A DNA stretch of 64,000 bases from an uncultured Flavobacteriales bacterium. GTDB taxonomy: Bacteria; Bacteroidota; Bacteroidia; Flavobacteriales_D; Crocinitomicaceae. Position 1 is the first letter of the stretch, and each line of letters starts with the position of its first letter. Both the position numbers and the translations under genes were made by a program. This document shows, piece by piece, positions 16,451 through 49,000 of this stretch. The stretch covers positions 62,001 to 126,000 of the forward strand of contig CAJAVU010000057.1 of the NCBI GenBank assembly GCA_903945495.1, given 5' to 3'. The notes beneath the pieces were generated by a model, which searched no databases, had not been told where the DNA came from, and saw nothing but the letters and a program-made list of their open reading frames with translations.

Positions 16451-16660
16451 AGTGACTAGTGACTAGTGACTTGCGAAAAGTGAATAGAAGAGGGGAGAAA
16501 GGAACGATGAGTGATGAGAGGTAAGTGATGAACGTCGATATACAATTAATCACCAATCACAAATCACCCTGTCTGCGCTGGAGGCTAAGACAGGCAGGAA
16601 ATTCTAAATCACAAATCATAAATCACAAATCACAAATCACGAATCACGAATCACGAATTA
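16451..16660 (+). repeat. Heptanucleotide array A: 30 consecutive 7-bp units
   Basis: Read in steps of 7 from 16451, the phase never slips for 30 units. It starts with AGTGACT three times, passes through degenerate units (AGTGAAT, ATGAGTG, ATGAGAG, ATGAACG), and ends in CAAATCA/TAAATCA/CGAATCA units. A palindromic segment (CCTGTCTGC...GACAGGCAGG) spans about units 17-21 without breaking the phase. It fills the divergent spacer between the WG-repeat gene and the 16703 gene. Confidence 0.85.
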
Positions 16661-16702
16661 TTGAGTATTATTGCAACAGTAACTGATTTTTATAACGAGT
16701 AA

Positions 16703-17293
16703 ATGAACCAACAAGAGAAAATGTTAATCGCAGCAGAGCGCATGCGATTGAAACGTGAGAAAGAGCAGCGAGAAGAAAACGAATTTTATCAACGCATTAC
16801 GACTGGTTGGCAGTGGCTCCTTTTTAAGATTGTTGTTGGTTTGTGTACCACAATGGTTGTCGTTTCAACGATTGAAGTTTTGGTAGATGGTCCAACGAAG
16901 AAGATTAGCGAACAAGCATGTAAAATCGATCGCGATTGGGAATATACCTGGCACAAAGTACTCGACATCGAAGGTTGTATGTTTTCCCCGTACATTGTAG
17001 ATTGGAGCAACCGAAAAGAAAGTAGTCTTAAAATGACGTATTCTCCTATTTTCAGATCGCCGAAGAAGTTAAGTTTCTCAGCTCAATTGAATGAAACTAC
17101 CACAAAAGAAGTCGTAGAAATGAGACAAATGTCGATGTTCAACTGGTTTCCAGCATTTCAACTTTTTCTTTTAATTCCTTTGCTTACCTTCATCTTCAAA
17201 CGCCAAAAGCCGTGGTTCAACTTCGCGCGCATTGCCTCAATGGTAATTATTTTCCCAGGTATGTTGATGGTGATTTTCTTTACGTTGTTGTAG
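16703..17293 (+). CDS. Hypothetical membrane protein
   Basis: 196 residues. The N-terminal 25 residues are a charged helix rich in Arg/Lys/Glu. One membrane segment lies at about 35-55 (LLFKIVVGLCTTMVVVSTI) and two more near the C-terminus (about 145-165 and 172-195). The loop between carries two cysteines (QACKID, IEGCMF) in a region probably outside the cytoplasm. I recognise no family. It is followed after 22 bases by the 17316 gene, so the two are probably cotranscribed. Confidence 0.6.
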   Translation: MNQQEKMLIAAERMRLKREKEQREENEFYQRITTGWQWLLFKIVVGLCTTMVVVSTIEVLVDGPTKKISEQACKIDRDWEYTWHKVLDIEGCMFSPYIVDWSNRKESSLKMTYSPIFRSPKKLSFSAQLNETTTKEVVEMRQMSMFNWFPAFQLFLLIPLLTFIFKRQKPWFNFARIASMVIIFPGMLMVIFFTLL

Positions 17294-17315
17294 GGGCATT
17301 CTATTAAACAATCCA

Positions 17316-18005
17316 ATGAAAACATCTCCCACAGATAAACACATCGCTAAAGTTTCGAACTTCGAAGACCTTGTGAATACGCCCTTTCGCGGTGAAATCA
17401 ATGCGTTGTGTTGGGAACGTAACTTAATGGGTGATTTTACGGAAATCGTTGACAAGCTTGAATGCCTTGAGAATATTACCGTTGTAGACGAAGAAGATTT
17501 GTTGGATTTGGATTTGAGCGAACAAGGAAAGTTGGCGCGTGAGGTGCTAATCAACGATATGAAGTTGTTAACGGAACATGGAGCAGCTCCGGTTTTGAAC
17601 GTCATCAAATGCTATGAGCGCGATGATGATTTTTTCCCAACGGATGTATATTCGTATCACGTTGATCGTTCACCAATTCCAAGTGATACTTTTTTATGCA
17701 CTTACGCGGGCGCTTCAAGCGATTTTGTTGCCAACGAACAAGCCGTTCAAAAAATCTTGATTCCAGAAATTCGTCAAGAACTCCGCAATCGCTTTGATGG
17801 GCGAGAAGAGGATTTTGAAGACTATTTAATTGAGAATTTCTATGATCTTCACTACCAAGCCTTGCACGATGCAGAGCCGCACGTTCTCGGACTCGGACAT
17901 CTTTGGCGCTTGGCCATCGATCATCCCGAACAACAAGTTCCGCCTTGTTTACACCGCGCTCCGAATGAAAATCCAGGTGAGTACCGTTTGTTGTTGATTT
18001 GTTGA
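17316..18005 (+). CDS. Hypothetical protein, DUF1826-like, with a possible HxD...H...R metal/2-oxoacid pattern
   Basis: 229 residues, soluble, no signal peptide. Visible motifs are VYSYHVDRSP in the middle followed by FLCTYAGASSDFV, and near the end CLHRAP and EYRLLL. The order H-x-D, later H, later R is what Fe(II)/2-oxoglutarate dioxygenase-like folds use, and the Tyr/His/Asp block followed by a CTY segment resembles DUF1826 proteins as I recall them. Both assignments are inferred. The stop codon TGA is the first base triplet of the spacer carrying array B. Confidence 0.6.
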   Translation: MKTSPTDKHIAKVSNFEDLVNTPFRGEINALCWERNLMGDFTEIVDKLECLENITVVDEEDLLDLDLSEQGKLAREVLINDMKLLTEHGAAPVLNVIKCYERDDDFFPTDVYSYHVDRSPIPSDTFLCTYAGASSDFVANEQAVQKILIPEIRQELRNRFDGREEDFEDYLIENFYDLHYQALHDAEPHVLGLGHLWRLAIDHPEQQVPPCLHRAPNENPGEYRLLLIC

Positions 18006-18011
18006 TTAATT

Positions 18012-18074
18012 ACAAATTGAAGATTACAAATTGAAGATTGAAGATTGAAGATTGAAGATTGAGAATTGAAAAAT
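18012..18074 (+). repeat. Heptanucleotide array B (ACAAATT/GAAGATT)
   Basis: Nine in-phase 7-bp units: ACAAATT, GAAGATT, ACAAATT, then GAAGATT four times, GAGAATT, GAAAAAT. It begins 6 bases after the TGA stop of the 17316 gene. The same starting words recur at 18951, again right after a stop codon. Confidence 0.85.
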
Positions 18075-18119
18075 GATTACTTTAGGTTCAGATAATTCAT
18101 CACATTATACAAGCAAAAA

Positions 18120-18464
18120 ATGATAAAATTATTGATGTTGTTTTCAATTGTTGGTTGCCTGGTTTCGTGCAAGGTACAAGACGATTTACGAGGAACCTTT
18201 TCTAACGATAACGGACAAGAAATAACAATCGATTGCAATTACTTAATTCATTCAAAGCATTTATCTGGAAGAGATTTTATGCCAAAAAACGGTGATAAAA
18301 TTAAATTAAGTCGAACGTCAATTCAAAATCAAGAAATTACGCTTTCATTTCTGTGGGAAAACATGCAATCAGCCTTTGCCAAGTGGGATCCAAATAAGGA
18401 CGAATTGTCTATTGGAAATGATATTTATAGTCGTAAGAGTTTTATTGAATGCAAAGAAAAATAA
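18120..18464 (+). CDS. Small putative lipoprotein
   Basis: 114 residues. The N-terminus MIKLLMLFSIVGCLVSCK has a lipobox (LVSC) with Cys17 as the likely lipidated residue; lysine two residues on may favour an outer-membrane location in this phylum (inference). The remainder is a short beta-rich domain (RGTFSNDNGQEITI, IKLSRTSIQNQEITLSF) resembling a lipocalin-like or META-like fold only in its alternating pattern. No family recognised. It lies between heptamer arrays B and C. Confidence 0.6.
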   Translation: MIKLLMLFSIVGCLVSCKVQDDLRGTFSNDNGQEITIDCNYLIHSKHLSGRDFMPKNGDKIKLSRTSIQNQEITLSFLWENMQSAFAKWDPNKDELSIGNDIYSRKSFIECKEK

Positions 18465-18467
18465 GAA

Positions 18468-18547
18468 CGAATCACTCCGACTCGGCAGCTAATCAAGAAT
18501 CACGAATCACCCTGTCTGCCGACAGGCAGGAAATCACGAATTATAAA
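18468..18547 (+). repeat. Heptanucleotide array C with embedded palindrome
   Basis: Units CGAATCA, CTCCGAC, TCGGCAG, CTAATCA, AGAATCA, CGAATCA run in phase from 18468, 4 bases after a TAA stop. They are interrupted by CCTGTCTGCCGACAGGCAGG at 18511-18530 and resume as AAATCAC, GAATTAT with a one-base phase shift. Confidence 0.8.
18511..18530 (+). repeat. Palindromic dispersed repeat CCTGTCTGCCGACAGGCAGG
   Basis: A GC-rich near-palindrome (CCTGTC-TGCC-GACAGG core) in an AT-rich spacer. A longer-loop version lies at 16568-16597 (CCTGTCTGC...GACAGGCAGG) and an inverted copy at 33630-33649 (CCTGCCTGTCGGCAGACAG). Half a copy (GAGGCAGGAAATCAC) starts array F at 29452. All four sit inside or at the edge of heptamer arrays, and in three of them GGCAGG is followed by AAATCAC or AAATT. 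Confidence 0.75.
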
Positions 18548-18555
18548 TTGCCAGC

Positions 18556-18948
18556 ATGACACTCGAACAAATCCAAAACGCACACAGCCAAGTAAAATCT
18601 GGCGCTGACTTTCCAGCCTACATTCAAGCAATTAAAGCACTTGGTGTTAGCCATTACGAAGCTTATGTTTCTGATGGACACACAGATTATCACGGAACGA
18701 ACAATGAAAAAGTAACATCGCCAGCGAAATATGATGCGATTCAAATAGCAGAAGAAGTGAACGAAGCGGTTTTCAAGACTGAACTTTTAGCACATCAACA
18801 AGGTAGAACAGATTATTTGACGTTCATTCATATGTGCGCCGAAACGGGAATCGAAAAATGGGAAATCAAATTATCGGAAATGACGTGCACGTATTTTGAT
18901 CGAGCTGGTAATATGGTGTTGGAGGAAACGATTCCTGGGGGGAAATGA
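18556..18948 (+). CDS. DUF1398 family protein
   Basis: 130 residues, soluble. It matches the DUF1398 family (relatives of E. coli YbcV) in length and in the sequence ADFPAYIQAIKALGVSHYE, followed by the AYVSDGHTDYHG segment. The family's biochemical role is unknown. The ATG at 18556 is preceded by array C, so transcription may read through from upstream. Its stop TGA opens the short repeat TGATTACAAATTGAAGATT. Confidence 0.8.
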   Translation: MTLEQIQNAHSQVKSGADFPAYIQAIKALGVSHYEAYVSDGHTDYHGTNNEKVTSPAKYDAIQIAEEVNEAVFKTELLAHQQGRTDYLTFIHMCAETGIEKWEIKLSEMTCTYFDRAGNMVLEETIPGGK

Positions 18949-18950
18949 TT

Positions 18951-18971
18951 ACAAATTGAAGATTCCAAACT
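18951..18971 (+). repeat. Short heptanucleotide array (ACAAATT, GAAGATT, CCAAACT)
   Basis: Three in-phase units in the 27-base gap after the DUF1398 stop. The words and their placement right after a TGA stop repeat the start of array B. Confidence 0.65.
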
Positions 18972-18975
18972 GAGG

Positions 18976-19488
18976 ATGAAAACGATCTCTTCCAAAAAAT
19001 ACAATCTGCTTTTAGCACTAATTCTGCTTTTAATGCTTTTGGGTGCGCATGCAAGTGTGATGCATTGGGACACAAATAAGTATTTCGTAAAGATTGGGTT
19101 GGTTGTTCTTGGATGTGTTTATTTCTTGCGTTTTCTTCACAAACCGGCTAAGAACTTACTTGATTTTACAAAGTTGGGATTGATTGCAGGTTACATTTCA
19201 CTTCGATTTTTAATAGTGTACCACTTGGCAGGTGTAAAAATCAACTTGTGGACAGTTATTCTAATAACATTGGTTTGGATTGGTCTTGAAATTTTCGGAA
19301 AGCTTAGTAAACGTTTTGAACAATTGAATCCAATAATCTACATTGGAATGGTATTCATGATGCTTGAAGTACTTTTCAAAATCAAACATTGGCCACTCTC
19401 ATTTCTTTTTAATTTTGGTGGGTTAACGATGCTAATTGTTGGCTTTTTAGTTGACGATTATCGCCAAAAGAAGTTGAATTTGAACTAA
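18976..19488 (+). CDS. Small multi-pass membrane protein with a GldL-like motif
   Basis: 170 residues with about five hydrophobic segments (9-26, 36-53, 66-84, 91-108, 119-135, 144-158) and a short charged tail. The segment LEVLFKIKHWPLSFL resembles the FKIMHWP motif of GldL-type gliding motility proteins, and HWDTNKYF occurs in the first loop. GldL proper has a longer periplasmic/C-terminal region, so this is at most a distant relative (inference). The next gene starts 16 bases downstream. Confidence 0.6.
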   Translation: MKTISSKKYNLLLALILLLMLLGAHASVMHWDTNKYFVKIGLVVLGCVYFLRFLHKPAKNLLDFTKLGLIAGYISLRFLIVYHLAGVKINLWTVILITLVWIGLEIFGKLSKRFEQLNPIIYIGMVFMMLEVLFKIKHWPLSFLFNFGGLTMLIVGFLVDDYRQKKLNLN

Positions 19489-19504
19489 TTATACAATCAA
19501 AAAA

Positions 19505-20119
19505 ATGAAAACACTCCTCGAAATAAAAAAACCGTCAAGTAAATCGTTTATCGTTTGGGAACATGTTTTGGTTTCAGCAGTGACATTTACAGGCACGTTT
19601 ATCCTTTTGTTTTTTGGACCAATGTTTCTTAATTCAAGATCGAGAAACCATGATTCATCAAATGACCCGGGAATTTCAATTATTGAATATTTATTTAATC
19701 ATCCTGCGGTTTATTTTGGTTTAACGGTATTGGCGGTCATCATTGCGAACGTATACATTTTTATCAAGAATCAGAAAACGAATTACATTGTGAAAATTGA
19801 ACAAGACGAGCAACAAATTCGTTTTGAATTGACCAATTTGTATTTTTCAAAACATCAACTTCAAGTACTTGATCTGAATAATTTTGAGTTTTATTTTGAA
19901 TCAAAAGTTTCTCAAGATGACGACAAACAACAACGAATTATTTTCCGAAATAAAAACGAAAACTCAATGATTGGCGAAATTATTCCTAAGCATTTTATAT
20001 GGAATGAACAGATTCTAACGTTAAAAGCAGCTTTAAGTGAACTTCATGCGTACAAAGGAAAAAGCAGAGAAAGACAAAGCAAAGTACCAGGAATCTCATG
20101 GCTGTTTGGAAGTAAATAA
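19505..20119 (+). CDS. Hypothetical membrane-anchored protein
   Basis: 204 residues. Two membrane segments lie at about 18-42 (VLVSAVTFTGTFILLFFG) and 70-88 (VYFGLTVLAVIIANVYIFI). A soluble C-terminal domain of about 110 residues follows, alternating short beta-like stretches (IRFELTNLYFSKHQLQVLDL, NNFEFYFESKV). This layout resembles PH-like or bPH domains behind a membrane hairpin, but no motif settles it. It ends 12 bases before the convergent protease gene. Confidence 0.55.
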   Translation: MKTLLEIKKPSSKSFIVWEHVLVSAVTFTGTFILLFFGPMFLNSRSRNHDSSNDPGISIIEYLFNHPAVYFGLTVLAVIIANVYIFIKNQKTNYIVKIEQDEQQIRFELTNLYFSKHQLQVLDLNNFEFYFESKVSQDDDKQQRIIFRNKNENSMIGEIIPKHFIWNEQILTLKAALSELHAYKGKSRERQSKVPGISWLFGSK

Positions 20120-20131
20120 AGCTTTTGAATC

Positions 20132-21340
20132 TTACCAATTCACTAAATCGACTTTCGTTAATTCAATTTCCACTTCTTTGTTGTCGATTAAAACGAGCAT
20201 TTTTAGTGTTTTTTGTTCTTCTGGAACGAAGCCATTTTGAATAATTGAACACCATTGGTCGGTAGTAAGGTTTCGGTAATCAACACCATTTGCTTCTAAA
20301 ATTTGAGTCCCCAATTGAATGCCTTTTTTACTTGCCGGTGAATTGATGAATACGTCACTGACAATGAGCTTGTTTTCTGAAATAAATGGACTAAAACCAA
20401 AACTTTCATTGGTATTGTGTACGAAAGGTTTTACAGGAATTAAAATAATTTCATTTACGCTCCAATCGATGATTACGCGGTAGTTTTTTAAAAATTTTGT
20501 TCCAAGAGTGCGTGAACCTTTTTCAAACGTTACGACATTGTTTGTTAGCGTCAAATCACCCAATTTCGTTGTTTCAATTAATGCCGTGAAATTGGTATCT
20601 GAAACGGCAGCACCGTAAAGCCCAGATCCAGAAGAACCGTATGATTTTGCTTCTTTAATCGTAGGATTTTTTTCTTTAATTGATGTGTAAACCACCTTTG
20701 AACTAGCGAAATAACCGTTCGATCCTGTATCAAATGTGACGTTCTTATCTTCAACGCCATTGTACGTGATATTTACGCGTGGAGTGAAGGATAAAGCTGG
20801 TGAAAAAGGTACATGAATAACAGAATCAGGAATTGTAAACGAGCTTCTTGTTTCACTGATTGTAATCACTTTTCGTTCGTAATCAATTTCCCAAACCGCT
20901 TCTTTCATCAAGTTGGCGCCAATTATTCCATCCGCATTTAAACATGCCAATACTTCGGATTTATTGAGATCGGCAACAGCAGCACCCGTTTGCTTGAAAC
21001 AAATGCCATTCAAATACATGTCCGGCATAACAACAAAATCCAATTCTTCTTTTACGCCTTGTGAATCGCCCGCTTTTTGAGAAACGACCGGTGTTAAGTT
21101 TAATTCAGCAGCTACTTCTTTCGAACATAAATTCGGCGCGCCTGTATCCACCAAGAAATCGTAGGTTTTCCCATTGATTGTTACAGTAACGATGATCAAA
21201 CCTAAACGCATTTCAAATGGAATCTCGGTTTTAAACGATGCTTGTTCAACAGAACCTTCTTTCAATAGTTTAAGAAGTTTAATAGAGCTACAACTTGAAA
21301 GAAATATAAGCATAACGCTTGAAAAGAGAAGTTTTTTCAT
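20132..21340 (-). CDS. Retropepsin-like aspartyl protease lipoprotein with PDZ domain
   Basis: 402 residues. The signal ends in a lipobox (LIFLSSCSS), so it is probably lipid-anchored on the outside of a membrane. Two aspartic protease motifs are present, FLVDTGAPN at about 63-70 and VTFDTGSNGYF near 205, so both catalytic aspartates of a two-lobed domain are intact. A PDZ domain follows at about 310-395 (INSPASKKGIQLGTQILEANG). This aspartyl protease-PDZ architecture is common in Bacteroidota; substrates are unknown. The gene is monocistronic and tail-to-tail with the 19505 gene. Confidence 0.85.
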   Translation of the reverse strand: MKKLLFSSVMLIFLSSCSSIKLLKLLKEGSVEQASFKTEIPFEMRLGLIIVTVTINGKTYDFLVDTGAPNLCSKEVAAELNLTPVVSQKAGDSQGVKEELDFVVMPDMYLNGICFKQTGAAVADLNKSEVLACLNADGIIGANLMKEAVWEIDYERKVITISETRSSFTIPDSVIHVPFSPALSFTPRVNITYNGVEDKNVTFDTGSNGYFASSKVVYTSIKEKNPTIKEAKSYGSSGSGLYGAAVSDTNFTALIETTKLGDLTLTNNVVTFEKGSRTLGTKFLKNYRVIIDWSVNEIILIPVKPFVHNTNESFGFSPFISENKLIVSDVFINSPASKKGIQLGTQILEANGVDYRNLTTDQWCSIIQNGFVPEEQKTLKMLVLIDNKEVEIELTKVDLVNW

Positions 21341-21505
21341 GGATTATTTGGTTACAATTAGTTCGTTGAACGATTTCAAACGCTTTTAAAAATAGTAAAA
21401 ACTGGGAGTTAAACTGTTTCTCTGAAGTCATTCATACGTTAAAAAGTTCTTAAACTTTCGTCCTCGCATAGGTTTTCGCCTAACTTCACTTCACAAAATT
21501 GTAAA

Positions 21506-22300
21506 ATGAGTAAACCAGCCAAGTTTCTTTACGCACTGTTCATTTGTTTATCGAGCTTATTGCTTCAAGCACAAGAATCACCCATTAAATGGAAGAACAA
21601 TTCGTTTAATTTGAATGTAGATACAACTGCCTATAACAAGTCAAATGGTAAGGGATTTTCAACGAATTATTATCCTAATTCAACGAATGCCAGTTATACC
21701 TTTACGAATGTTGGTGAACATGTTACCTTTCTCGATACAACAGTTTTTTACAAACAATATATCTCAAAACCTGGGGAATCAAATCAGATTGATTTAAACT
21801 CGACACAGTTGTTTAATTATTATGCTGCTTTCCGAAAACAACGCGATACAACGATGTATGCGTATTTGCCATTTTATTACGAAGGAAAGATTTACCGTGA
21901 AAAACTGACGTTTGAACTAACATTTGGAAAAAGCAAATTGATTAAGTACGACAGTTTATTCATTGACGCAACAGAACGAGTAACGGATTTTTTGCGTTCG
22001 GATACCATTTCAGAATATCCTTCACTTCGTCTAACGTATTATTTTACGATTAAAAACACTACGAAAAAGCCAATTTTATGTACCAAAGATTTTGTAGCTT
22101 GGAATGATGCTCAGGCCTTGAGAAGTAATAATAATTATGTGGAAATTTCACCTGGACAAACGTATAAAATTCCAGTTCAATTGAACATGGATCGAAAGTA
22201 TCGCTTCCAAAGCTCCGGTAGAATTGAAGTGATATCTGAAGGTATTCGTGAAGAATTTCAATGTGAAATACGTTCGAAATATGAAGCAAAGAGAAATTAA
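21506..22300 (+). CDS. Exported protein of unknown function
   Basis: 264 residues with a signal peptide (FLYALFICLSSLLLQAQ). The mature part is beta-rich and has no cysteines in its first half. The stretch SLRLTYYFTIKNTTKKPILCTKDFVAWNDAQ followed by EISPGQTYKIPVQLNMDRKYRF resembles the Ig-like DUF1573 style of Bacteroidota (fourth domain with GQT and a closing strand), but I cannot assign it. The DUF1801 gene begins 14 bases downstream. Confidence 0.65.
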   Translation: MSKPAKFLYALFICLSSLLLQAQESPIKWKNNSFNLNVDTTAYNKSNGKGFSTNYYPNSTNASYTFTNVGEHVTFLDTTVFYKQYISKPGESNQIDLNSTQLFNYYAAFRKQRDTTMYAYLPFYYEGKIYREKLTFELTFGKSKLIKYDSLFIDATERVTDFLRSDTISEYPSLRLTYYFTIKNTTKKPILCTKDFVAWNDAQALRSNNNYVEISPGQTYKIPVQLNMDRKYRFQSSGRIEVISEGIREEFQCEIRSKYEAKRN

Positions 22301-22314
22301 ATTACTTTAGAAGG

Positions 22315-22749: not shown

Positions 22750-22766
22750 ATTATTAATTAGTTTTT

Positions 22767-22783
22767 ACCACAGAGGCACGGAG
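22767..22783 (+). repeat. Dispersed repeat ACCACAGAGGCACGGAG, copy 2
   Basis: One mismatch from the copy at 13621-13637, again preceded by TTTTT and lying shortly downstream of a stop codon. Confidence 0.6.
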
Positions 22784-23978: not shown

Positions 23979-25427
23979 GTGGAAAATAAAGAACTGACGT
24001 GGACAGTTTGTCTCGATTGTCAAGGAAGCGGAAAAAGAAACGGGAAAATCACCAAAAATGAACGTTACCGTTATCAACTTGAGCGTGATGCGTTTGAAAA
24101 ATCGAATCAGCAAGGTTCCGCGCCTGTTCCTCCAAAAGGGCAATTAGTCACTTGTTCATTTTGCAATGGTTCAGGATTGCGCAGTTCAGAAACAAATCCA
24201 CCAGCAGATTCAACAAAATTCCCGCACATTGCAATTATTGGCGGCGGAATTGGGGGAGTGGCATTAGCAGTTGCTTGCCTTCACCGCGGAATTCCGTTTA
24301 CCTTGTTTGAGCGCGACGCAAGTTTTGCAGATCGATCTCAAGGATATGGACTTACCTTGCAACAAGCGAGTAAAGCCATCGAAGGATTTGGATTGTTTAA
24401 ACTCGATAAAGGTTTGGTTTCCAAGTGGCATGTCGTTCATAATCCGGAAGGAAAAGTAGTTGGAGAATGGGGCGCAAAAAAATGGTTGGATCCAAACGAA
24501 CAAGCCTATTCAAAGAAAACGAATGTTCACATTGCACGTCAATCCTTGCGTTTGGCGATGTTGGAACAATTGCACAATCATCCATCTGTTCAGTGGGGAC
24601 ATCAATTAATTGATTTCAATGAACTTCCTGATAAACGTTTTGAATTGCACTTTCAAGCCGATGGTGAGATGAAGCATGTTACTGCTGATATGGTCGTTGG
24701 TGCCGATGGAATTCGCAGTGTTGTTCGCAAGCAATTAATCGGAGAAGAACGAACACCAATGCGCTATTTAGGTTGTATTGTGATTTTGGGAATTTGTAGC
24801 CTGGAAGCATTGAAACACTTGAATGATCCTTTGTTGAATGCTGAAACTGTTTTTCAAACGGCCAATGGTCACGAACGCATTTATGTGATGCCATTTTCCA
24901 AAGAAGAAGTGATGTGGCAGTTGAGTTTCCCAATCGACGAAGCTGAAGCAAAAGCATTGAGCGAAAAAGGGGTGAAGGCCTTGAAAGAAGAAGCAATTCG
25001 TCGAACGCCTTGGCACAGTCCAATTCCAGAAATGGTTCAAGCTTCTCCAGAAACACTTATTTCTGGTTATCCAGCTTATGATAGAGAAATTTTAACGAGT
25101 ACAAATTTTTCAAACGCAGGTGCAGCAACCTTAATTGGTGACGCGGCACATCCAATGAGTCCGTTCAAAGGCCAAGGAGCCAATCAAGCCTTGCTGGATG
25201 CTTTGATCTTAGCGCGAATGGTTTACAAGGAATGCGTAACATCTGATAAATGGAAAGAAGATGGTTTGCGCACAACTGTATTGGAATCCTTTGAAGAAGC
25301 AATGCTCGAGCGTAGCGCACCAAAAGTACGCGATTCGGCAGCTGCAGCAGAATTTTTGCACACAGATGTCGTTTTGTTGGAAGGCAATGAGACACGCGGT
25401 GGGCGATTTAAGAGAACATTGGAGTAG
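23979..25427 (+). CDS. FAD-dependent monooxygenase with N-terminal DnaJ-type zinc module
   Basis: 482 residues. GTG is the only usable start: an in-frame stop lies upstream at 23952-23954 and the next methionine would remove the zinc module. Residues 11-18 (CLDCQGSG) and 59-66 (CSFCNGSG) are two CxxCxGxG motifs, as in DnaJ cysteine-rich regions. From about 83 comes a p-hydroxybenzoate hydroxylase-type flavoprotein: IIGGGIGG for the FAD dinucleotide fold, VVGADGIRSVVR (DG motif) and GDAAHPMSPFKGQGANQAL (GD motif). It should hydroxylate a small aromatic or similar substrate with NAD(P)H and O2; the substrate is unknown. The zinc-ribbon fusion is unusual and may bind a protein partner or sense redox state. 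Confidence 0.85.
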   Translation: MENKELTWTVCLDCQGSGKRNGKITKNERYRYQLERDAFEKSNQQGSAPVPPKGQLVTCSFCNGSGLRSSETNPPADSTKFPHIAIIGGGIGGVALAVACLHRGIPFTLFERDASFADRSQGYGLTLQQASKAIEGFGLFKLDKGLVSKWHVVHNPEGKVVGEWGAKKWLDPNEQAYSKKTNVHIARQSLRLAMLEQLHNHPSVQWGHQLIDFNELPDKRFELHFQADGEMKHVTADMVVGADGIRSVVRKQLIGEERTPMRYLGCIVILGICSLEALKHLNDPLLNAETVFQTANGHERIYVMPFSKEEVMWQLSFPIDEAEAKALSEKGVKALKEEAIRRTPWHSPIPEMVQASPETLISGYPAYDREILTSTNFSNAGAATLIGDAAHPMSPFKGQGANQALLDALILARMVYKECVTSDKWKEDGLRTTVLESFEEAMLERSAPKVRDSAAAAEFLHTDVVLLEGNETRGGRFKRTLE

Positions 25428-25466
25428 AAGTTAGAGATAGAGGATAGAACTAGTGGATAGAATTTA
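25425..25466 (+). repeat. Heptanucleotide array D (GATAGAG/GATAGAA type)
   Basis: About six 7-bp units starting with the TAG stop of the monooxygenase gene: TAGAAGT, TAGAGAT, AGAGGAT, AGAACTA, GTGGATA, GAATTTA. Degenerate, with TAG recurring every 6-7 bases. Confidence 0.55.
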
Positions 25467-27830: not shown

Positions 27831-27914
27831 CTCGGCTCTCGGTTCTCGGTTCTCGACTCTCGACTCTCGGTTCTCGACTCTCGACTCTCGGTTCTAGCTT
27901 CTAATTTCTAGCTC
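27831..27914 (-). repeat. Heptanucleotide array E (CTCGGTT/CTCGACT), 12 units
   Basis: CTCGGCT, CTCGGTT x2, CTCGACT x2, CTCGGTT, CTCGACT x2, CTCGGTT, CTAGCTT, CTAATTT, CTAGCTC, in perfect 7-bp phase. On the minus strand it starts inside the last codons of the proline dehydrogenase gene, whose TAG stop is part of a unit, and extends downstream. The ORF at 27693-27911 is an artefact of this repeat. Confidence 0.9.
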
Positions 27915-29459: not shown

Positions 29460-29536
29460 AAATCACAAATAACGAATCACAAATCCTGAATCCCGAATCA
29501 CAAATCCCGAATTATAAATCCCGAATTATAAATGCT
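29460..29536 (+). repeat. Heptanucleotide array F, 11 units
   Basis: AAATCAC, AAATAAC, GAATCAC, AAATCCT, GAATCCC, GAATCAC, AAATCCC, GAATTAT, AAATCCC, GAATTAT, AAATGCT: every unit has AAT at positions 2-4. It ends 5 bases before the aroB -7 element. Confidence 0.88.
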
Positions 29537-31574: not shown

Positions 31575-31595
31575 TAGAATTTAGAGCTAGAAGGT
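31575..31595 (+). repeat. Short heptamer run (TAGAATT, TAGAGCT, AGAAGGT)
   Basis: Three in-phase units starting 1 base after the TAA stop of the DUF1295 gene. The words match the AGCTAGAA units at the proline dehydrogenase end of array E and array D. Confidence 0.4.
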
Positions 31596-32643: not shown

Positions 32644-32646
32644 ATT

Positions 32647-32688
32647 AGTGACTAGAAAATAGTGACCAGTGATTAGTTCGAAGTGATT
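32647..32688 (+). repeat. Heptanucleotide array G (AGTGACT/AGTGATT)
   Basis: AGTGACT, AGAAAAT, AGTGACC, AGTGATT, AGTTCGA, AGTGATT: six units in phase, starting 3 bases after the TAA stop of the NlpC/P60 gene. The unit is the same as the start of array A. Confidence 0.8.
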
Positions 32689-32762
32689 CTAGAATATTTC
32701 GTTATTATTTAAACATTTTCCGTTTTCAAGGTTTTACTATTTTAGCATCAAATTCAAAGATT

Positions 32763-33473: not shown

Positions 33474-33489
33474 GGAGAATGGTTCCATA

Positions 33490-33650
33490 ATTCAACTATT
33501 CAAATATTCAAATCATCTCCTACAGGTCAATGAAATCAGGAGTTATAAGTAAGATTGTTAACTTGCAAATTTGTTAATTTGTAAAGATGCAAAGTTGTAA
33601 TGTTGCAAATTTCAAACATTGCAAAATTTCCTGCCTGTCGGCAGACAGAA
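33490..33650 (+). repeat. Heptanucleotide arrays H and I with inverted CCTGTCTGCCGACAGG palindrome
   Basis: H (33490-33517): ATTCAAC, TATTCAA, ATATTCA, AATCATC. I (33561-33630): ACTTGCA, AATTTGT, TAATTTG, TAAAGAT, GCAAAGT, TGTAATG, TTGCAAA, TTTCAAA, CATTGCA, AAATTTC, more degenerate but rich in TTGCAAA words. It is followed in phase by the palindrome CCTGCCTGTCGGCAGACAG at 33630-33649, inverted relative to the copy at 18511. It lies between two convergent genes. Confidence 0.65.
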
Positions 33651-33700
33651 AATATTTGGAATTTACAAAACCGAAGAAAGAACGATACTTGTTGGTTAGT

Positions 33701-33742
33701 CACGAATCACGAATTATGAATTATGAATCATGAATCATCAAG
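33701..33742 (+). repeat. Heptanucleotide array J (CACGAAT/TATGAAT/CATGAAT)
   Basis: CACGAAT x2, TATGAAT x2, CATGAAT, CATCAAG. On the minus strand it begins at the TGA stop of the MFS gene (33738-33740). Confidence 0.85.
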
Positions 33743-42023: not shown

Positions 42024-42038
42024 GGTCTTTACATACGA

Positions 42039-42075: not shown

Positions 42076-42085
42076 GAATTAGTTT

Positions 42086-43045: not shown

Positions 43046-43074
43046 TCCTTAATTATTCGGGATTCTTAATTCAA

Positions 43075-44142
43075 TTAACCGTTTGTACGAGTGAACTCTT
43101 TCAATACGTCAACCAATACTTGTACGCTTTCCAATGGCAACGCGTTGTACATTGATGCACGGTAACCACCAGTTGAACGGTGTCCAGGTAAACCAACGAT
43201 TCCTGCATCTTTCCACAGTTTATCGAATGCTTCTTGATGCGCCTCATTCGTTAATGTAAACGTTACGTTCATGTTTGAGCGATCTTCTTTTGCAACTGTA
43301 GCGTTGAAAAGAGGATTTGCATCTAATTCATTGTATAACAAGTTTCCTTTTGCGATGTTTTTCGCTTCCATTGCTTTCACTCCGCCATTTGCGATTAAAT
43401 TGCGTAAGTTCAACATAGCAACGTAAACAGAGAAAACAGGAGGTGTATTCAACATTGATTCTTTTTCAACTTGTTGTTTCAAGTCCATATAAGTTGGCAT
43501 GAACGGCGATGTTGATTTTCCTAAAATTTCATCTTTCACGATATACAAAGTTGCACCTGCTGGACCAAGATTTTTTTGCGCTCCTGCGTAAATCATATCG
43601 AAGTCAGCAACATTGATTTCTTTTGAGAAAATATCAGAAGACATATCACAAACCAATGGCAAATCTGTTTTTGGGAAATTATGGAATTGTGTTCCGTAGA
43701 TTGTATTGTTAGAAGTGAAGTGAATATAATCCACGTCCGTTGGAACAACAAAATCTTTAGGGATGTATGAGAATTTTTTGTCTTCAGAAGAAGCAAAGAC
43801 ATTCACATCAACTCCAACTTTTTTCGCTTCTTTGATTGCTCCAGAAGCCCAAGTTCCTGTATTGATGTAACCTGCTTTTTTCGTGTCGCGCATCATGTTC
43901 AATGCAGCGATTGTAAATCCAAGTGTTGCACCACCTTGTAAATAAACGACAGAATAACCTGCTGGTACGTTGAGTGCTTTTTTTACTAGATCACACGCCT
44001 CGTCCATAACTGCAACGAAATCTTTGTGACGGTGAGAAACTTCTAGGATAGAAAGACCATTAAAATCTAAGACAGCATCAGCTGCTTGTTTGAAAACTTC
44101 TTGTGGTAAAATACAAGGACCTGCTCCGAAATTGTGTTTCAT
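43075..44142 (-). CDS. serC: Phosphoserine aminotransferase
   Basis: 355 residues, normal length. It is a PLP fold-type I enzyme: FGAGPCILPQEVFKQAAD at the N-terminus, SVVYLQGGATLGF, the PLP lysine in IYAGAQKNLGPAGATL, and the C-terminal VGLPGHRSTGGYRASMYNALP. It makes 3-phosphoserine from 3-phosphohydroxypyruvate and glutamate and probably also acts in pyridoxal synthesis. First gene of the serC-serA-DUF1015-yggS-DUF1684-amn operon. Confidence 0.96.
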   Translation of the reverse strand: MKHNFGAGPCILPQEVFKQAADAVLDFNGLSILEVSHRHKDFVAVMDEACDLVKKALNVPAGYSVVYLQGGATLGFTIAALNMMRDTKKAGYINTGTWASGAIKEAKKVGVDVNVFASSEDKKFSYIPKDFVVPTDVDYIHFTSNNTIYGTQFHNFPKTDLPLVCDMSSDIFSKEINVADFDMIYAGAQKNLGPAGATLYIVKDEILGKSTSPFMPTYMDLKQQVEKESMLNTPPVFSVYVAMLNLRNLIANGGVKAMEAKNIAKGNLLYNELDANPLFNATVAKEDRSNMNVTFTLTNEAHQEAFDKLWKDAGIVGLPGHRSTGGYRASMYNALPLESVQVLVDVLKEFTRTNG

Positions 44143-44244
44143 GTTTGCTATTGTTTATCGTCGTTTAAAATACTTTACAAATGTGAAAAAAATAAAAGAT
44201 TTAATGATAGAAAAGATGCTTCTTTTTTACAAAAAATCGGTTAA

Positions 44245-44272
44245 AAAAAAACCCCGAATTATCGGGGTTTAA
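44245..44272 (-). terminator. Terminator of the THX-like gene
   Basis: Stem AAACCCCGA/TCGGGGTTT with loop ATTA; on the minus strand a run of Ts follows. It lies 4 bases after the THX-like stop and before serC. Confidence 0.88.
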
Positions 44273-44275
44273 AAT

Positions 44276-44524
44276 TTATTCTTCAGACTTCTTAGTCGTT
44301 TTTTTCGCGGTTGTTGCTTTTTTCACTGCTGGTTTTTTCTCAGCGGCTACTTTCGGAGCTGCAGCTTTTTTCGCTACTGTTTTTTTCTCTGCCGGTGCTT
44401 CCGCTTTAACAGTTGCTTTTTTTACAGATGGTTTAACAGTTGCTGTTGTTTTTCTTTTACGTGTGTTCCCGTAAGAACCCATCGCTCTTTTTCCTTTCGC
44501 TGTTTTTTTATCTCCTCTTCCCAT
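44276..44524 (-). CDS. THX-like 30S ribosomal protein with lysine/alanine-rich histone H1-like tail
   Basis: 82 residues. The first 26 (MGRGDKKTAKGKRAMGSYG) match the 30S ribosomal protein Thx family, which is a 25-30 residue basic peptide bound in the 30S head. The remaining 55 residues are built from KKATVKAEAPAEKK-type Lys/Ala/Pro repeats like bacterial histone H1-like proteins, ending in KKSEE. The tail may bind rRNA or DNA. Fusion of the two in one small gene is the notable point. The promoter (TATATTTG) and terminator are both clear, so it is a monocistronic, probably strongly expressed gene. Confidence 0.8.
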   Translation of the reverse strand: MGRGDKKTAKGKRAMGSYGNTRKRKTTATVKPSVKKATVKAEAPAEKKTVAKKAAAPKVAAEKKPAVKKATTAKKTTKKSEE

Positions 44525-44563
44525 AATAGTCTAATTTTTTTAAAAGTAACCTTGATCGTCAGG

Positions 44564-44571
44564 CAAATATA
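44564..44571 (-). promoter_or_regulatory. -7 promoter element TATATTTG for the THX-like gene
   Basis: Perfect TAnnTTTG on the minus strand, 39 bases upstream of the ATG at 44524. It lies over the stop region of trmH. Confidence 0.6.
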
Positions 44572-44572
44572 A

Positions 44573-45259
44573 TTATTCTTTTTTAAATAAACGACGTCTA
44601 ATTTCATCTTCTAGTTCTTGTCCGCCACGCAAGATTTTTCGACACCATTTTAACTTCAATTTTGTTTGCTCTTCAGCGTTTAATTTCCAATCGATTGAAC
44701 TATTTTCCAAACGCTCACGAATAACGTTTAAGGTAATTGCAGCCGAAACTGAAATATTGAAACTTTCAGTAAAACCATACATTGGGATTTTCACGAATTC
44801 ATCGGCAAGTTCCATAATCTCTGGAGAAATTCCTCGTCGTTCAGTACCAAAAACAAAGGCCATTGGACTATCAAGATTCAAATCATTGATTGTAACATCG
44901 TTTGTATGCGGTGTTGTGGCAATAATGCGAAAGCCTTTTTCTTTCAGATTTTTAATACAATCGATTTCTGGTTCTGGTCCTCGGTCGTAATTGTACATAT
45001 CAACCCATCTTCCAGCACCTAAGGCAATATCGCGTTGAACTTTGTATTGATTGTCTTTTTCGATTACATGTAAATTCTGTATGCCAAAGCAATCACACGA
45101 ACGTAAAACTGCAGAAGCATTGTGTTCTTGAAACACATTTTCGAGTGCAACGGTTATATAATTCGTACGGTCAGCCGCTATACGGTCAAACATTTCACGT
45201 TTACTAGGAGTAATAATGTCGTATAATTCCGCTAAAACGGCTAAATCTTCAGAATGCAT
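44573..45259 (-). CDS. trmH: TrmH-family tRNA/rRNA 2'-O-methyltransferase
   Basis: 228 residues. SPOUT-fold motifs are present: motif 1 NVFQEHNASAVLRSCDCFGIQNLHVIE (N and R in place), motif 2 AFVFGTERRGISPEIMELAD and motif 3 IPMYGFTESFNISVSAAI. The pattern is closest to TrmH, which methylates G18 ribose in the tRNA D-loop, though related rRNA methylases share the core. The TACTTTTG promoter element ends 4 bases before the ATG, so the mRNA should be leaderless. Confidence 0.88.
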   Translation of the reverse strand: MHSEDLAVLAELYDIITPSKREMFDRIAADRTNYITVALENVFQEHNASAVLRSCDCFGIQNLHVIEKDNQYKVQRDIALGAGRWVDMYNYDRGPEPEIDCIKNLKEKGFRIIATTPHTNDVTINDLNLDSPMAFVFGTERRGISPEIMELADEFVKIPMYGFTESFNISVSAAITLNVIRERLENSSIDWKLNAEEQTKLKLKWCRKILRGGQELEDEIRRRLFKKE

Positions 45260-45263
45260 GGCG

Positions 45264-45271
45264 CAAAAGTA
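45264..45271 (-). promoter_or_regulatory. -7 promoter element TACTTTTG for trmH, leaderless
   Basis: Perfect -7 match; only GCGC separates it from the region of the ATG (45259). The context TACTTTTGCGCC-ATG closely parallels TACTTTTGCACC-ATG of the MFS gene. Confidence 0.6.
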
Positions 45272-45330
45272 GGAAATATAAAATGCATTTTAATTAGCAA
45301 ATTCAAATAGGTAGTTGAACTATAGAAACA

Positions 45331-45363
45331 AAAAAAAGGAGAACCTTCCGATTCTCCTTTTTA
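45331..45363 (-). terminator. Terminator of the HU gene
   Basis: Stem AAAAGGAGAA/TTCTCCTTTT with an 8-base loop; the minus strand ends in a T-run. It lies 21 bases after the HU stop. Confidence 0.85.
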
Positions 45364-45383
45364 ATTTCTTTACAGAAAGTGGA

Positions 45384-45656
45384 TTAGTTAACTTTTCCAG
45401 AAAGTTCAGCACCAGCTTTGAAACGTACAACGTTTTTAGCAGCGATTTTGATTTCTTTTCCAGTTTGTGGGTTACGTCCAGTTCTTGCAGCACGGCTAGA
45501 AACAGAGAAAGATCCGAATCCTACTAAAGAAATTCTATCTCCTGCTTTCAATGCAGTTGCAGTTGCGTTAACAAATCCGTCCAATGCTTTTTTAGCATCT
45601 GCTTTAGACAATCCAGCCTCAGATGCGATAGCATCGATCAATTCTGCTTTGTTCAT
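45384..45656 (-). CDS. HU-family DNA-binding protein
   Basis: 90 residues, exactly the usual length of HU. MNKAELIDAIASEAGLSKADAKKALDGFV forms the helical base. The beta arm follows (GFGSFSVSSRAARTGRNPQTGKEIKIAAKNVVRFKAGAEL) with the RNPxTG tip that bends DNA. It compacts and bends the nucleoid. It has an excellent promoter and its own terminator, consistent with a highly expressed single gene. Confidence 0.96.
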   Translation of the reverse strand: MNKAELIDAIASEAGLSKADAKKALDGFVNATATALKAGDRISLVGFGSFSVSSRAARTGRNPQTGKEIKIAAKNVVRFKAGAELSGKVN

Positions 45657-45696
45657 AGTTTTGGTTTTTTAGAATGTTTGTAATTAATTATCGAAA

Positions 45697-45726
45697 CAAA
45701 TATATCTGAATATCCAAGCCACACAA
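45697..45726 (-). promoter_or_regulatory. Promoter of the HU gene (TTG-N19-TATATTTG)
   Basis: -7 TATATTTG at 45704-45697 and TTG at 45726-45724 on the minus strand, 19 bases apart: a perfect Bacteroidota consensus promoter. The leader is about 33-37 bases. Confidence 0.75.
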
Positions 45727-45871
45727 GCATTTTGGCAAAAAAAAGTGCTTTTTTGTTGAAAAAAGTGGTGTTTTGTTGATAACCAAGGCAAAAAAGCCCG
45801 TTTTTTGGGGTTATTTCGACCAATAATGTGTTTTTATCGTTGAAGAAAATGGTGAGTTAAAGCCTTAAAGA

Positions 45872-46180
45872 TTAGGTGTTGGAGTGGGATTGTGGGAGGA
45901 AATTGGTCAATACGCTTATATCGTTCAATTTCAAACTTACCATATATTGATTATGGATAAAATGAAAATCAAGCAAATTCGCATCCTTGAGTTTTGAAAT
46001 GTGATCATGAACCGTAACAGGTGAGAGTTTCACAATTGATGCAATTTCCTTTTGCATAATGCATTGATGATTTAATAAGTGTTCAATGATGGTTATTCTT
46101 GCTGGATGAGCAAGTGCTCTCGCAATAGTTGCAAGTTGAATGGTATGTTGGTTAAATTGAGAAGTTTTTGACGCTCCCAT
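45872..46180 (-). CDS. ArsR-family winged-helix regulator
   Basis: 102 residues. It has the ArsR winged-helix pattern: LATIARALAHPARITIIEHLLNH, MQKEIASIVKLSPVTVHDHISKLKDANLLDFHFIHNQYMVSL. The recognition helix is in SPVTVHDHISKL. The metal-binding ELCV(C/G)D motif of ArsR/SmtB sensors is absent; only one cysteine (NHQC) is present, so it probably senses something other than metals. No target gene is evident; the flanks are HU and a repeat-filled spacer. Confidence 0.85.
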   Translation of the reverse strand: MGASKTSQFNQHTIQLATIARALAHPARITIIEHLLNHQCIMQKEIASIVKLSPVTVHDHISKLKDANLLDFHFIHNQYMVSLKLNDISVLTNFLPQSHSNT

Positions 46181-46662
46181 AAAATGTAGGTTTTAATGAA
46201 TACTATTATTAAGTTATGAGGAATTATCATTTAAAACAAAAAATTCTGGCAAAAATATTTTTGGAAATTCGCGAATTAGCAAATTCGCAATATTACGAAT
46301 GGGATATAATGTTTTTAGGAAATTATCTGCTATGCTGGCTATGCCCGTCACAATATTACGAATAGGTTATAAAAATGATTTTGGAAATTGACTAAGTACA
46401 TCCGATAATATTCTTATGAAATTCGCCAATTCGCAATGTTACGAAAGGGATATCTTTAACTTAGGAAATTCTTTAATTGCACTCGGGGCTGACGCCTTGT
46501 TGATAAATTTAAGAACGAGATTAAAGTGATTTGGGAAATTCGCGAATTAGCAAATTCGCAATATTACGAATGGGTTACTGAAAGATATAGGAAATTCACG
46601 AATTATCTGCCGCAGCGGACGGTGCCTAAACCAAATACAATATTATGAATAGATAGAACTTG
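46181..46662. repeat. 482-base spacer filled with direct repeats (array K)
   Basis: Two identical 41-bp copies (GGAAATTCGCGAATTAGCAA...) lie at 46263-46303 and 46534-46574. Degenerate relatives occur at 46421-46450 (ATTCGCCAATTCGCAATGTTACG), 46351-46367 (CAATATTACGAATAGG) and 46590-46655. Within each copy the sequence steps in 7s (AATTCGC, GAATTAG, CAAATTC, GCAATAT, TACGAAT). No ORF is supported. Confidence 0.8.
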
Positions 46663-47622
46663 CTAAACCAACTTCCACTCCTCAATTTTATTCCCAGCCA
46701 AGAACTCCTTGTAATTCATTCGTCGTTTACCTTCAGGTTGCAACTCACTTACCAATAAATAGCAATCGCCACATGGAAATAAAATTCCTTCTTTGGTTTC
46801 TTTTAAGGTTGTCGCATCAGATATGGTAAAATCAGTTTTGATTGCTGAGAAAACTTTGAACGTTTTGGTTTCGTTCTTGGTGCTATTTGTCAAAGTGGTC
46901 CAAGCAGCTGGATAGGGCGAAAGTCCTCTTACAAAATTATGAACGGTGGCAACGGATTGCTTCCAATCGATTTCACATGTCGGTTTAAAAATCTTAGGCG
47001 CACTTTTCAATTCTCCTTCGGCCAATTCTAATTGATCAATTCCAACAGCTGTTCCATCCATGATTTTTTGCACGGTTGACGCGCTAACTTGCGCTCCAAG
47101 TTCCATTAATCGATCGTGCAATTCACCAACAGATTCATTTTCGCCGATGGTTACATAAGATCGCTCAATGACTTTTCCCGTGTCTATTTCCTTTTCGATG
47201 AAGAAGGTTGTTACACCTGTTTGTGCTTCACCATTCATAACTGCCCAGTTAATTGGAGCCGCACCACGATAGTTTGGAAGAATAGAAGCATGTAAGTTAA
47301 TCGTTCCCTTTGGAGGCATTGCCCAAACAACTTCAGGAAGCATGCGGAATGCAACCACAACAAATAAGTCCGCTTTCAGATCCGATAATTCTTGGATGAA
47401 CGCTTCGTCTTTTAAATTCGTCGGTTGAAGGATATTCAATTCTTTTTCAACGGCATATATTTTTACTGCACTTTCATTCATTTGTTGTCCACGTCCTGCT
47501 GGTTTGTCAGGAGCGGTGATAACACCAACCACATTAAATGCTTGTTGAATCAATTCATCTAAAATGCGAACGGCAAAATCTGGCGTTCCCATAAAAACGA
47601 TACGAAAGTCTTGTTTATTCAT
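46663..47622 (-). CDS. fmt: Methionyl-tRNA formyltransferase
   Basis: 319 residues from the ATG at 47622, which overlaps the MATE stop by one base (TAATG); the track's start at 47643 would overlap the MATE gene by 22 bases. Motifs are RIVFMGTPDFAVRIL, VVAFRMLPEVVW, the catalytic-loop NLHASILPNYRGAAPINWA (Asn, His), and a C-terminal OB-like domain. It formylates initiator Met-tRNA with 10-formyl-THF. Confidence 0.95.
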   Translation of the reverse strand: MNKQDFRIVFMGTPDFAVRILDELIQQAFNVVGVITAPDKPAGRGQQMNESAVKIYAVEKELNILQPTNLKDEAFIQELSDLKADLFVVVAFRMLPEVVWAMPPKGTINLHASILPNYRGAAPINWAVMNGEAQTGVTTFFIEKEIDTGKVIERSYVTIGENESVGELHDRLMELGAQVSASTVQKIMDGTAVGIDQLELAEGELKSAPKIFKPTCEIDWKQSVATVHNFVRGLSPYPAAWTTLTNSTKNETKTFKVFSAIKTDFTISDATTLKETKEGILFPCGDCYLLVSELQPEGKRRMNYKEFLAGNKIEEWKLV

Positions 47623-48956
47623 TATACGATTTTTTTCTTCCAATCAAATGTTCTTAAATAAAGGATCGAGAAAAGTCCTAAAGCACAGAAGTAGACGTAC
47701 TCGACAGTCCAAATCCAAAATATATCGAGTTTGAATACTTTGATTAATAAGTAAGCGGCGATAATATAAACGCCAACACAAATAAATTCGATAATAAATG
47801 ATACCATGGTATTTCCACTTCCATTAATGGTTTGAAAGTAAACACTGACTACTCCAAAAATCATGATAGACCCAGCTACGAAACGCATAATCTCAGCACT
47901 TTTATCCAGGTAAGCTTCTGCCGGATTAATAAATTCAATCATCAGCCTAGGATAGAACAATGCTCCATGGAAAACGAGGAAGAGGAAAATAATTGTCAAA
48001 AATTGAATTCTCCGCTGGATTGTTCTCAAAGCGCCATAATCCTTATTGCCTAAGTATTGTGAAATATAGGTTTTGGTTGTACCAGCAAATCCTGAAATAG
48101 GGATGAAAGCTAGGAAGTAAATCGATCGGATATTTTGAGAAACGGTTAATTCGTATTTTCCCATTTGCTCAATCCACGTGAAAAATACGGTCCAAGTTGC
48201 TAAAGCTATAAATCCTTGAAACATCAGTGGACTTCCAATTTTAAACAATTCTTTAAAGGAAGGCCAATTGATGGAGAAGTGAGAAAATAATTCCAATTCT
48301 TTTCGTTCTTTCGAGAAAATGAGGAAGATGATTAAAAACGTCATTCCACAAGCGTCAGCAATGGTATTCGCTATGGCAGCGCCTTCAAGTCCCATGGCTG
48401 GTAATCCCCAGTTTCCAAAAATCAAAAGGTAATCGAGTAAAATATTTGAAGTTGCTGTGATGACTGCCGCGACCAACACAACCCATGTTTTTCCTGTAGC
48501 GAGAAAGAATGCTTGAATGGACAAGGTAATCATCGCAAAGAACAAGGCGAAACTTCGAATTTGGATAAATTGTCCCTGTAATAAGGCTAAGTCTTTGTGT
48601 TTCGAATAGTAATTCAACATATCGGGCATGATAAATTGAATTCCAAGAAACAAGATTAAAGCAATGATAAAGTTGGATAAGATGGAGGATCCGAAAATTC
48701 GTCCAATCGCATCGGTATTTTTTTGACCAATTCTTCGAGCGATTAAAATTTGTGCTCCATCACCCATTCCAGCCAAGGCCATGAAAACCGTAACATAAAT
48801 CAAACCTGCATTTCCAACAGCGTCAAATGAAAGAGATGTTTGATCATAGCGACTAATAAACCATGCATCCGTTATCAAAATAACAGACTGTATGAAACTG
48901 GAAACCATTAACGGAACAGCAACTTTTAATATGGTCTTGTACTTTAAGTCTAACAT
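47622..48956 (-). CDS. MATE-family efflux transporter
   Basis: 444 residues with twelve membrane segments. The two-fold internal repeat and family blocks are visible: MVSSFIQSVILITDAWFISR, MGDGAQILIARRIGQKNTDAIGR in the first half and GFAGTTKTYISQYLGNKDYGALR in the second. It should exchange Na+ or H+ for a cationic substrate, but the substrate is unknown. It is translationally coupled to fmt and lies 44 bases (array L) after the rlmI-like gene. Confidence 0.9.
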   Translation of the reverse strand: MLDLKYKTILKVAVPLMVSSFIQSVILITDAWFISRYDQTSLSFDAVGNAGLIYVTVFMALAGMGDGAQILIARRIGQKNTDAIGRIFGSSILSNFIIALILFLGIQFIMPDMLNYYSKHKDLALLQGQFIQIRSFALFFAMITLSIQAFFLATGKTWVVLVAAVITATSNILLDYLLIFGNWGLPAMGLEGAAIANTIADACGMTFLIIFLIFSKERKELELFSHFSINWPSFKELFKIGSPLMFQGFIALATWTVFFTWIEQMGKYELTVSQNIRSIYFLAFIPISGFAGTTKTYISQYLGNKDYGALRTIQRRIQFLTIIFLFLVFHGALFYPRLMIEFINPAEAYLDKSAEIMRFVAGSIMIFGVVSVYFQTINGSGNTMVSFIIEFICVGVYIIAAYLLIKVFKLDIFWIWTVEYVYFCALGLFSILYLRTFDWKKKIV

Positions 48957-48965
48957 TTATTTCTT

Positions 48966-49000
48966 CTCAGCTCTCGGTTCTCGGTTCTCGGTTCTCAAAA
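48966..49000 (-). repeat. Heptanucleotide array L (CTCGGTT)
   Basis: CTCAGCT, CTCGGTT x3, CTCAAAA in 7-bp phase, directly after the stop of the methyltransferase gene on the minus strand. The unit is the same as in array E, 21 kb away. Confidence 0.85.

Follow-up and report, generated by a model that had tools for sequence, protein, structure and literature searches.

Spacers of the window analyzed here, a 64,000-nt stretch of DNA from an uncultured Flavobacteriales bacterium of the Crocinitomicaceae (G000:C57:62001-126000; source assembly 3.64 Mb in 114 contigs), contain arrays of degenerate tandem heptamers. We found that these arrays have a period of 7 bp, and secondarily of 8 bp in this species and its sister species, and no further short period. 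The genomes used for comparison were those of the sister species (G008), five other congeners (G004, G021, G016, G005 and G025), a further relative (G023) and a member of another family of the same order (G039). An earlier note on this DNA had listed 14 intervals of the window as 7-bp arrays. The best lag-p segment of each interval was tested against 500 first-order-Markov (dinucleotide-based) shuffles, and the list stood in part. Seven intervals were clear (16451-16660, 18012-18074, 18468-18547, 27831-27900, 29460-29536, 33701-33737 and 48966-48996; all P < 0.002), although 18468-18547, which is interrupted by a GC-rich hairpin, was weaker than the others. One was marginal (32647-32688, P = 0.034), and three had a period-7 score at chance level (18951-18971, P = 0.20; 25425-25466, P = 0.17; 31575-31595, P = 0.24). 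The remaining three fitted period 8 better. The period-8 and period-7 scores were 13.0 and 1.8 at 33490-33517 and 19.2 and 4.6 at 33561-33630; at 46263-46574 there was no period-7 signal (P = 0.92), and a weak period 8 accompanied what are mainly larger dispersed repeats. The features are as follows.

16449..16567, + strand: degenerate 7-bp array running from CTAGTGA (three units) through GTGATGA-like units to AATCACC/AATCACA, flanked by divergent genes (lag-7 segment score 26; read from the sequence).
16568..16598, + strand: GC-rich hairpin CCTGTCTGC-GCTGGAGGCTA-AGACAGGCAGG inside the array (sequence evidence).
16599..16669, + strand: 7-bp array of AATCACA/AATCACG units (lag-7 segment score 39).
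18008..18076, + strand: 7-bp array passing from AATTACA/AATTGAA to GATTGAA units (lag-7 score 34; interval P < 0.002).
18468..18547, + strand: short AATCACG array, split at 18511-18530 by the palindrome CCTGTCTGCCGACAGGCAGG, copies of which lie near arrays (lag-7 score 10.1; P < 0.002).
27831..27900, + strand: 7-bp array of CTCGGTT/CTCGACT with a 21-bp higher-order repeat, in a convergent spacer (lag-7 score 38; TRF periods 7 and 21).
29460..29533, + strand: 7-bp array of AATCACA/AATCCCG/AATTATA, present also in the orthologous G008 spacer and absent from G004, G021 and G023.
32644..32691, + strand: weak 7-bp array of ATTAGTGACTAG/AGTGACC (P = 0.034); the G008 ortholog has no array.
33479..33517, + strand: array of ATTCAAAT with a period of 8 bp, not 7 bp (period-8 score 13-14).
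33549..33630, + strand: array of GTAAGATT/GTTAACTT/GCAAATTT with a period of 8 bp, not 7 bp (period-8 score 19-21); the start GTAAGATTGTTAACTT recurs at other G008 loci.
33698..33737, + strand: 7-bp array of AATCACG/AATTATG/AATCATG in a convergent spacer; the spacer is 0 bp long in G004, G021 and G023.
48965..48996, + strand: 7-bp array of TCTCGGT in the spacer 48957-49000, whose orthologs carry other units.

The first array had been listed as 30 units. It is discontinuous: GTGACTA-type units are followed by a degenerate GTGATGA stretch and then by AATCAC units, which the 31-bp hairpin splits. A closely similar 31-bp hairpin was found in the spacer G000:C6:74934-75234, where G008 lacks it within the orthologous array; no obvious target-site duplication accompanied this difference between the two species. 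The palindrome CCTGCCTGTCGGCAGACAGG was considered as a generator of arrays and rejected. It has just five copies in about 1 Mb, four of them near arrays, and was treated as an insert into arrays.

We then turn to the period spectrum. In the spacers of the window, identity was in excess at lags 7 (z = 5.1), 14 (z = 4.4) and 21 (z = 3.0). The genome-level statistics cover 477 kb of the 3.64 Mb; local segments were scored in spacers only and one period was assigned per array. The spacers were roughly delimited by simple open reading frame calls (ATG start, at least 90 codons), and the shuffles preserve first-order composition only. In the spacers of these 477 kb of the own genome, 31 arrays of period 7 were observed against 1.07 expected and eight of period 8 against 0.82, while periods 2-6 and 9-13 were at or near background. 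The sister species gave 27 against 1.27 for period 7 and 14 against 0.85 for period 8. Period 7 was likewise in excess in G021 (24 against 1.12), G004 (12 against 1.23) and, in the other family, G039 (9 against 0.00), whose units (CAATACY, TCCATTA, TACCCAA) are unrelated to those of the own genome. No arrays were found in the congeners with smaller genomes (G016, G005 and G025) or in 150 kb scanned of Escherichia coli K-12. The period-7 outcome was stable across score thresholds from 9 to 20, and period-7 arrays make up 3.8% of the own spacer bases. In coding regions, where raw lag identity only was examined, lag 7 was not raised. The lag-7 peak over shuffled sequence that the earlier note had called for is thus present, and the arrays are not slippage repeats of many periods, save for the second peak at 8. 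The period is common to families of the order; the words are specific to lineages and dispersed within them.

The own genome uses several unit families, among them AATCACR (with AATTATG and AATCATG), CTAGTCA, TCTCGRY and AATTGAA. Triplets of AATCAC are abundant in the own genome and in G008; most congeners have few or none. The TCTCGRY and TCYATGY families occur at dozens of loci in several congeners. The idea of a universal GATT/AATC core was rejected: it is found in 24 of 53 arrays of the own genome and G008, but in 2 of 31 in G004 and G021 and in none of five in G039. Since it is rare or absent outside the own genome and G008, it is a feature of the lineage and no part of the mechanism. What stays constant is the period rather than one motif, as had been proposed, for unit families vary among loci and lineages. 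The sequence is not irrelevant, however. Among unlinked arrays of the own genome, 15% of pairs matched at six or more of the seven unit positions, compared with 2.4% when units were shuffled. The corresponding figure between the own genome and G039 was 1.4%, which indicates no relation. Units common to unlinked loci imply that array sequence is copied or is taken from a repertoire of the lineage. Within own arrays, identity fell with unit distance from 0.75 through 0.70, 0.65 and 0.59 to 0.50, as expected from local duplication; adjacent units are thus about 0.75 identical, and a few near-perfect arrays are present.

Word lists proper to each lineage would also follow if a reverse transcriptase or a telomerase-like enzyme added heptamers from an RNA template, and the own genome has one reverse transcriptase-like match. 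Against this, no RVT_1 match was obtained for the array-rich G021, whose genome is 99% complete; moreover, single genomes combine several unrelated families, and identity drops with distance along the array. We give RNA-templated addition hardly any credence.

Orthologous spacers were compared between species rather than strains. Among 94 comparable spacers of the own genome and G008, arrays were present in both at nine and in one at four; the unit family was kept at six of the nine shared sites and was different at three. For G021 and G004 (77 comparable spacers), the arrays were in both at seven and in one at four, and the family was kept at four and different at three. Arrays therefore recurred at the same sites far above chance (P = 3e-9 for the own genome and G008; P = 1e-7 for G021 and G004), and yet at six of the 16 shared sites the unit family had been replaced with the 7-bp period retained. 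The spacer 48957-49000 is an example. It has TCTCGGT in the own genome, TCTATGY in G008, and AGTTATG (eight units in G004, six in G021) together with TCTCTGC in the other two congeners. Many array sites were empty in relatives.

The gain and loss of units in 7-bp steps, for which comparison of orthologous spacers had been suggested, was seen. Orthologous arrays differ in number by whole units, and also by blocks of two, four or six. ACTCATA has 11.1 units in G004 and 9.1 in G021, and AATTTGT has 11.6 in G021 and 3.6 in G004. The array at C6:65948 of G021 consists of TAGTTGA; in its G004 counterpart, TAGTTGA alternates with TGATGAG blocks, whose family is dispersed at other loci. Clean indels between orthologous spacers, 4-60 bp in length, were tallied as well; a lenient alignment was discarded because it was dominated by unalignable spacers. 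Six of the eight tandem-type indels, in which the neighboring sequence is duplicated, were multiples of 7 (P = 2e-4 against 1/7), as were 13 of all 43 (P = 0.006); the 1/7 is a rough baseline, and the numbers are small.

The location of the arrays is biased. They were found in 19% of convergent, 11% of codirectional and 4% of divergent spacers (convergent versus divergent, P = 2e-4). In codirectional spacers they were skewed to the 3′ end of the upstream gene (chi-square P = 0.002), and only 3 of 64 lay in the fifth of the spacer closest to the downstream gene. The scarcity in divergent spacers, which bear promoters, and the lean toward the upstream 3′ end fit tolerance and speak against a regulatory role at start codons. 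This bears on the possibility that each heptamer family is selected as a set of sites bound by a protein or by an RNA-level regulator, comparable to MacGregor's proposal for TAACTGA repeats that lie upstream of start codons. The recurrence of AATCACR, TCTCGRY and TCYATGY at many loci and across congeners would agree with such selection, and so would the nine of 13 array spacers that the own genome and G008 have in common (P = 3e-9). Besides the avoidance of divergent spacers and of the start-codon side of codirectional ones, the change of unit family at 6 of the 16 sites in common and the many sites empty in relatives are difficult to reconcile with it, and Rfam gave no match. A regulatory origin appears quite unlikely to us.

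The preference for convergent spacers and the GC-rich palindromes within arrays are also what would be seen if the arrays formed the arms of inverted repeats in RNA or DNA, with the structure as the selected or mobile unit (terminator-like or resembling miniature inverted-repeat transposable elements, MITEs). Strong folds were predicted at inverted pairs at C76b:14817 in the own genome (z = -8.6) and at C69:14314 (z = -8.3) and C13:4426 (z = -6.4) in G008. An element of about 130 bp with heptamer ends (TAGAACCTAGAGCATAGAC ... GTCTCAGTTCTCGGCTCTCGCTTCTCAGTTCTA) has three copies at L224:14800-15230 of G004 (contig C1), and its core is dispersed elsewhere in G004, G021 and the own genome. Taken as a whole, spacers holding 7-bp arrays showed no stronger folding than the rest (P = 0.44), and neighboring arrays are direct in 16 cases and inverted in nine. 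One inverted pair (G000:C6:59844-59934 and G008:C69:14314-14400) has a single family in both arms within each species, and the family differs between the species. This joint switching of the arms had suggested an inverted-arm hairpin as a general model, which was rejected as the fold and orientation tests were negative. A structural explanation of the arrays in general is unlikely, and could hold for a subset of loci.

The earlier note had proposed a mechanism that copies in 7-bp steps. The whole-unit changes in orthologous arrays agree with this, but a general process copying 7 bp at any place is not supported. Exact 7-bp dimers numbered 98 inside arrays against 8.4 expected, and isolated ones 19 against 27.9. 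As the excess is confined to arrays, the machinery expands existing arrays and does not duplicate 7 bp everywhere. The same count weighs on a model of staggered-break repair, in which a nuclease would leave overhangs of 7-8 nt that are filled in and end-joined, so that 7-8 bp are duplicated per event. It would yield a fixed step and the adjacent values 7 and 8. Isolated 7-bp duplications show no excess, however, and Ku, expected for repair by nonhomologous end joining with fill-in, was found in none of 26 congeners (a Bacillus subtilis control was positive). We regard this model as very improbable.

On balance, we think that the arrays are probably tolerated degenerate satellites of spacers, heptameric and in some cases octameric, which are maintained by 7-nt slippage and patch copying; the step value of 7 itself is not accounted for. 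The nascent strand would slip during replication or repair within an existing array and re-pair one or a few units away. Since mismatch repair deals with loops no longer than about 3-4 nt, those of 7 nt would evade it, which may help arrays to persist. Unit families common to unlinked loci and patches of foreign families in orthologous arrays point to copying between arrays, and patches would pass between them probably via short-homology template switching or conversion. Slippage and transfer might even be one event, in which short homology lets the nascent strand re-pair either within its own array or in a different one. The arrays would persist because they are tolerated and not as regulatory sites.

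Several points weigh against slippage with patch copying. By itself, slippage accounts neither for the lack of an excess of isolated 7-bp duplications nor for the absence of periods 5, 6 and 9-13, and evasion of mismatch repair leaves the missing 5, 6, 9 and 10 unexplained. The second period of 8, in two sampled genomes only, is also unexplained. Patch copying is deduced from patterns rather than from a dated event, and the indel counts are small and at the level of species rather than strains. The lack of arrays in small-genome congeners would also be compatible with a background that permits arrays or with the loss of a factor. More tentatively, mosaic heptamer satellites might form a network across the genome and trade patches between loci, so that a site and its 7-bp phase last but the word there is exchanged. 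In that case the step would be a physical constant of a copying machinery common to bacterial families, and the 8-bp arrays of the own and the sister species would result from a shift by one base. We consider this stronger version possible but rather doubtful.

The genus includes pairs of close species (about 83% and 90% nucleotide identity) in which dozens of arrays can be compared, as well as array-free congeners, so that the slippage step, the persistence of sites and the copying between loci become directly measurable. That 7-bp steps are limited to arrays already in place narrows the mechanism. Why seven bases are preferred is a question dating from a survey of 2007, and comparison of close relatives makes it testable.

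Some further observations concern the surroundings. The array at 27831..27900 adjoins a proline dehydrogenase-like gene (Pfam PF01619), and the 27.7-29.1 kb stretch had no match in plasmid records. For one large protein, the nearest named matches came from genomes of uncultured Flavobacteriales, Fluviicola and Crocinitomicaceae. Within one spacer, window positions 46181-46662 hold variant copies of a roughly 40-bp element, GGAAATTCGCGAATTAGCAAATTCGCAATATTACGAATGGG, a dispersed repeat unlike the heptamers; G004 and G021 have a similar CGAATTCGCGAATT motif in the sequence orthologous to window positions 32644-32762. The 11-bp spacer at 53509-53519 corresponds in G021 (L115:16512-17009) to repeats of the CTATGTGC/CACATAGG type with repeated CACTTCGATAAACTCAGTGCATCGCTATGTG. 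Long tandem repeats with a unit of about 210 bp lie in a 3191-codon reading frame at 151-9726, which possibly encodes a repetitive surface protein.

In many prokaryote genomes, heptamers outnumber every other class of long repeat according to Mrazek, Guo and Shah (2007, PNAS), as cited in PMC4679880 and PMC4692102, and PMC4679880 credits Mrazek et al. (2007) with ascribing 7-nt slippage to the contact length of the polymerase. The arrays described here resemble such repeats in having tandem 7-bp units beyond chance and whole-unit length changes between relatives. The survey, as summarized there, compared long simple repeats with chance in single genomes, whereas strongly degenerate arrays are here tracked across orthologous spacers; a Crocinitomicaceae-like lineage is not named in these two accounts of it. 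The earlier note knew of no description for Bacteroidota. In fact, MacGregor (2015, PMC4679880) reported heptamer arrays in five Bacteroidetes, with intergenic TAACTGA arrays there and in Beggiatoaceae and Cyanobacteria, indels of 7 nt that distinguish close Cyanothece strains, and arrays of mixed heptamers in Gramella, Aequorivita, Elizabethkingia and Microcystis. An intergenic site, 7-nt indels between close relatives and mixed heptamers are thus shared with the present arrays. Three tandem copies of TAACTGA were not found in the own genome and were present in 15 of 393 sampled Bacteroidota. The repeats of the Guaymas Beggiatoaceae lie directly upstream of start codons (PMC4679880), the side that the arrays here avoid. 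The Xanthomonas GGGAATC/(GGGANTN)n and Nostoc GGGGA(C/T)T heptamers also have heterogeneous units at many intergenic loci, and the (GGGANTN)n arrays vary strongly in length and sequence between related species (PMC4692102). As described in that source, they are G-rich, form quadruplexes and belong to one family per genome; ours are AT-richer, with several families per genome and family replacement at orthologous sites. The short tandemly repeated repetitive (STRR) sequences of filamentous cyanobacteria (Calothrix), cited in PMC4692102, are likewise tandem heptanucleotides, a likeness by description only. From repetitive extragenic palindromic (REP) and MITE-like elements the arrays differ in that inverted-repeat structure is not a property of the class (P = 0.44), although a subset is strongly structured. 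In the literature found, which largely excludes subscription papers and is no proof of absence, the strict confinement to periods 7 and 8, the replacement of families at orthologous sites and the lack of isolated 7-bp duplications were not described. The heptamer array as a phenomenon is already known from other bacteria; the mosaic turnover seen here is unusual.

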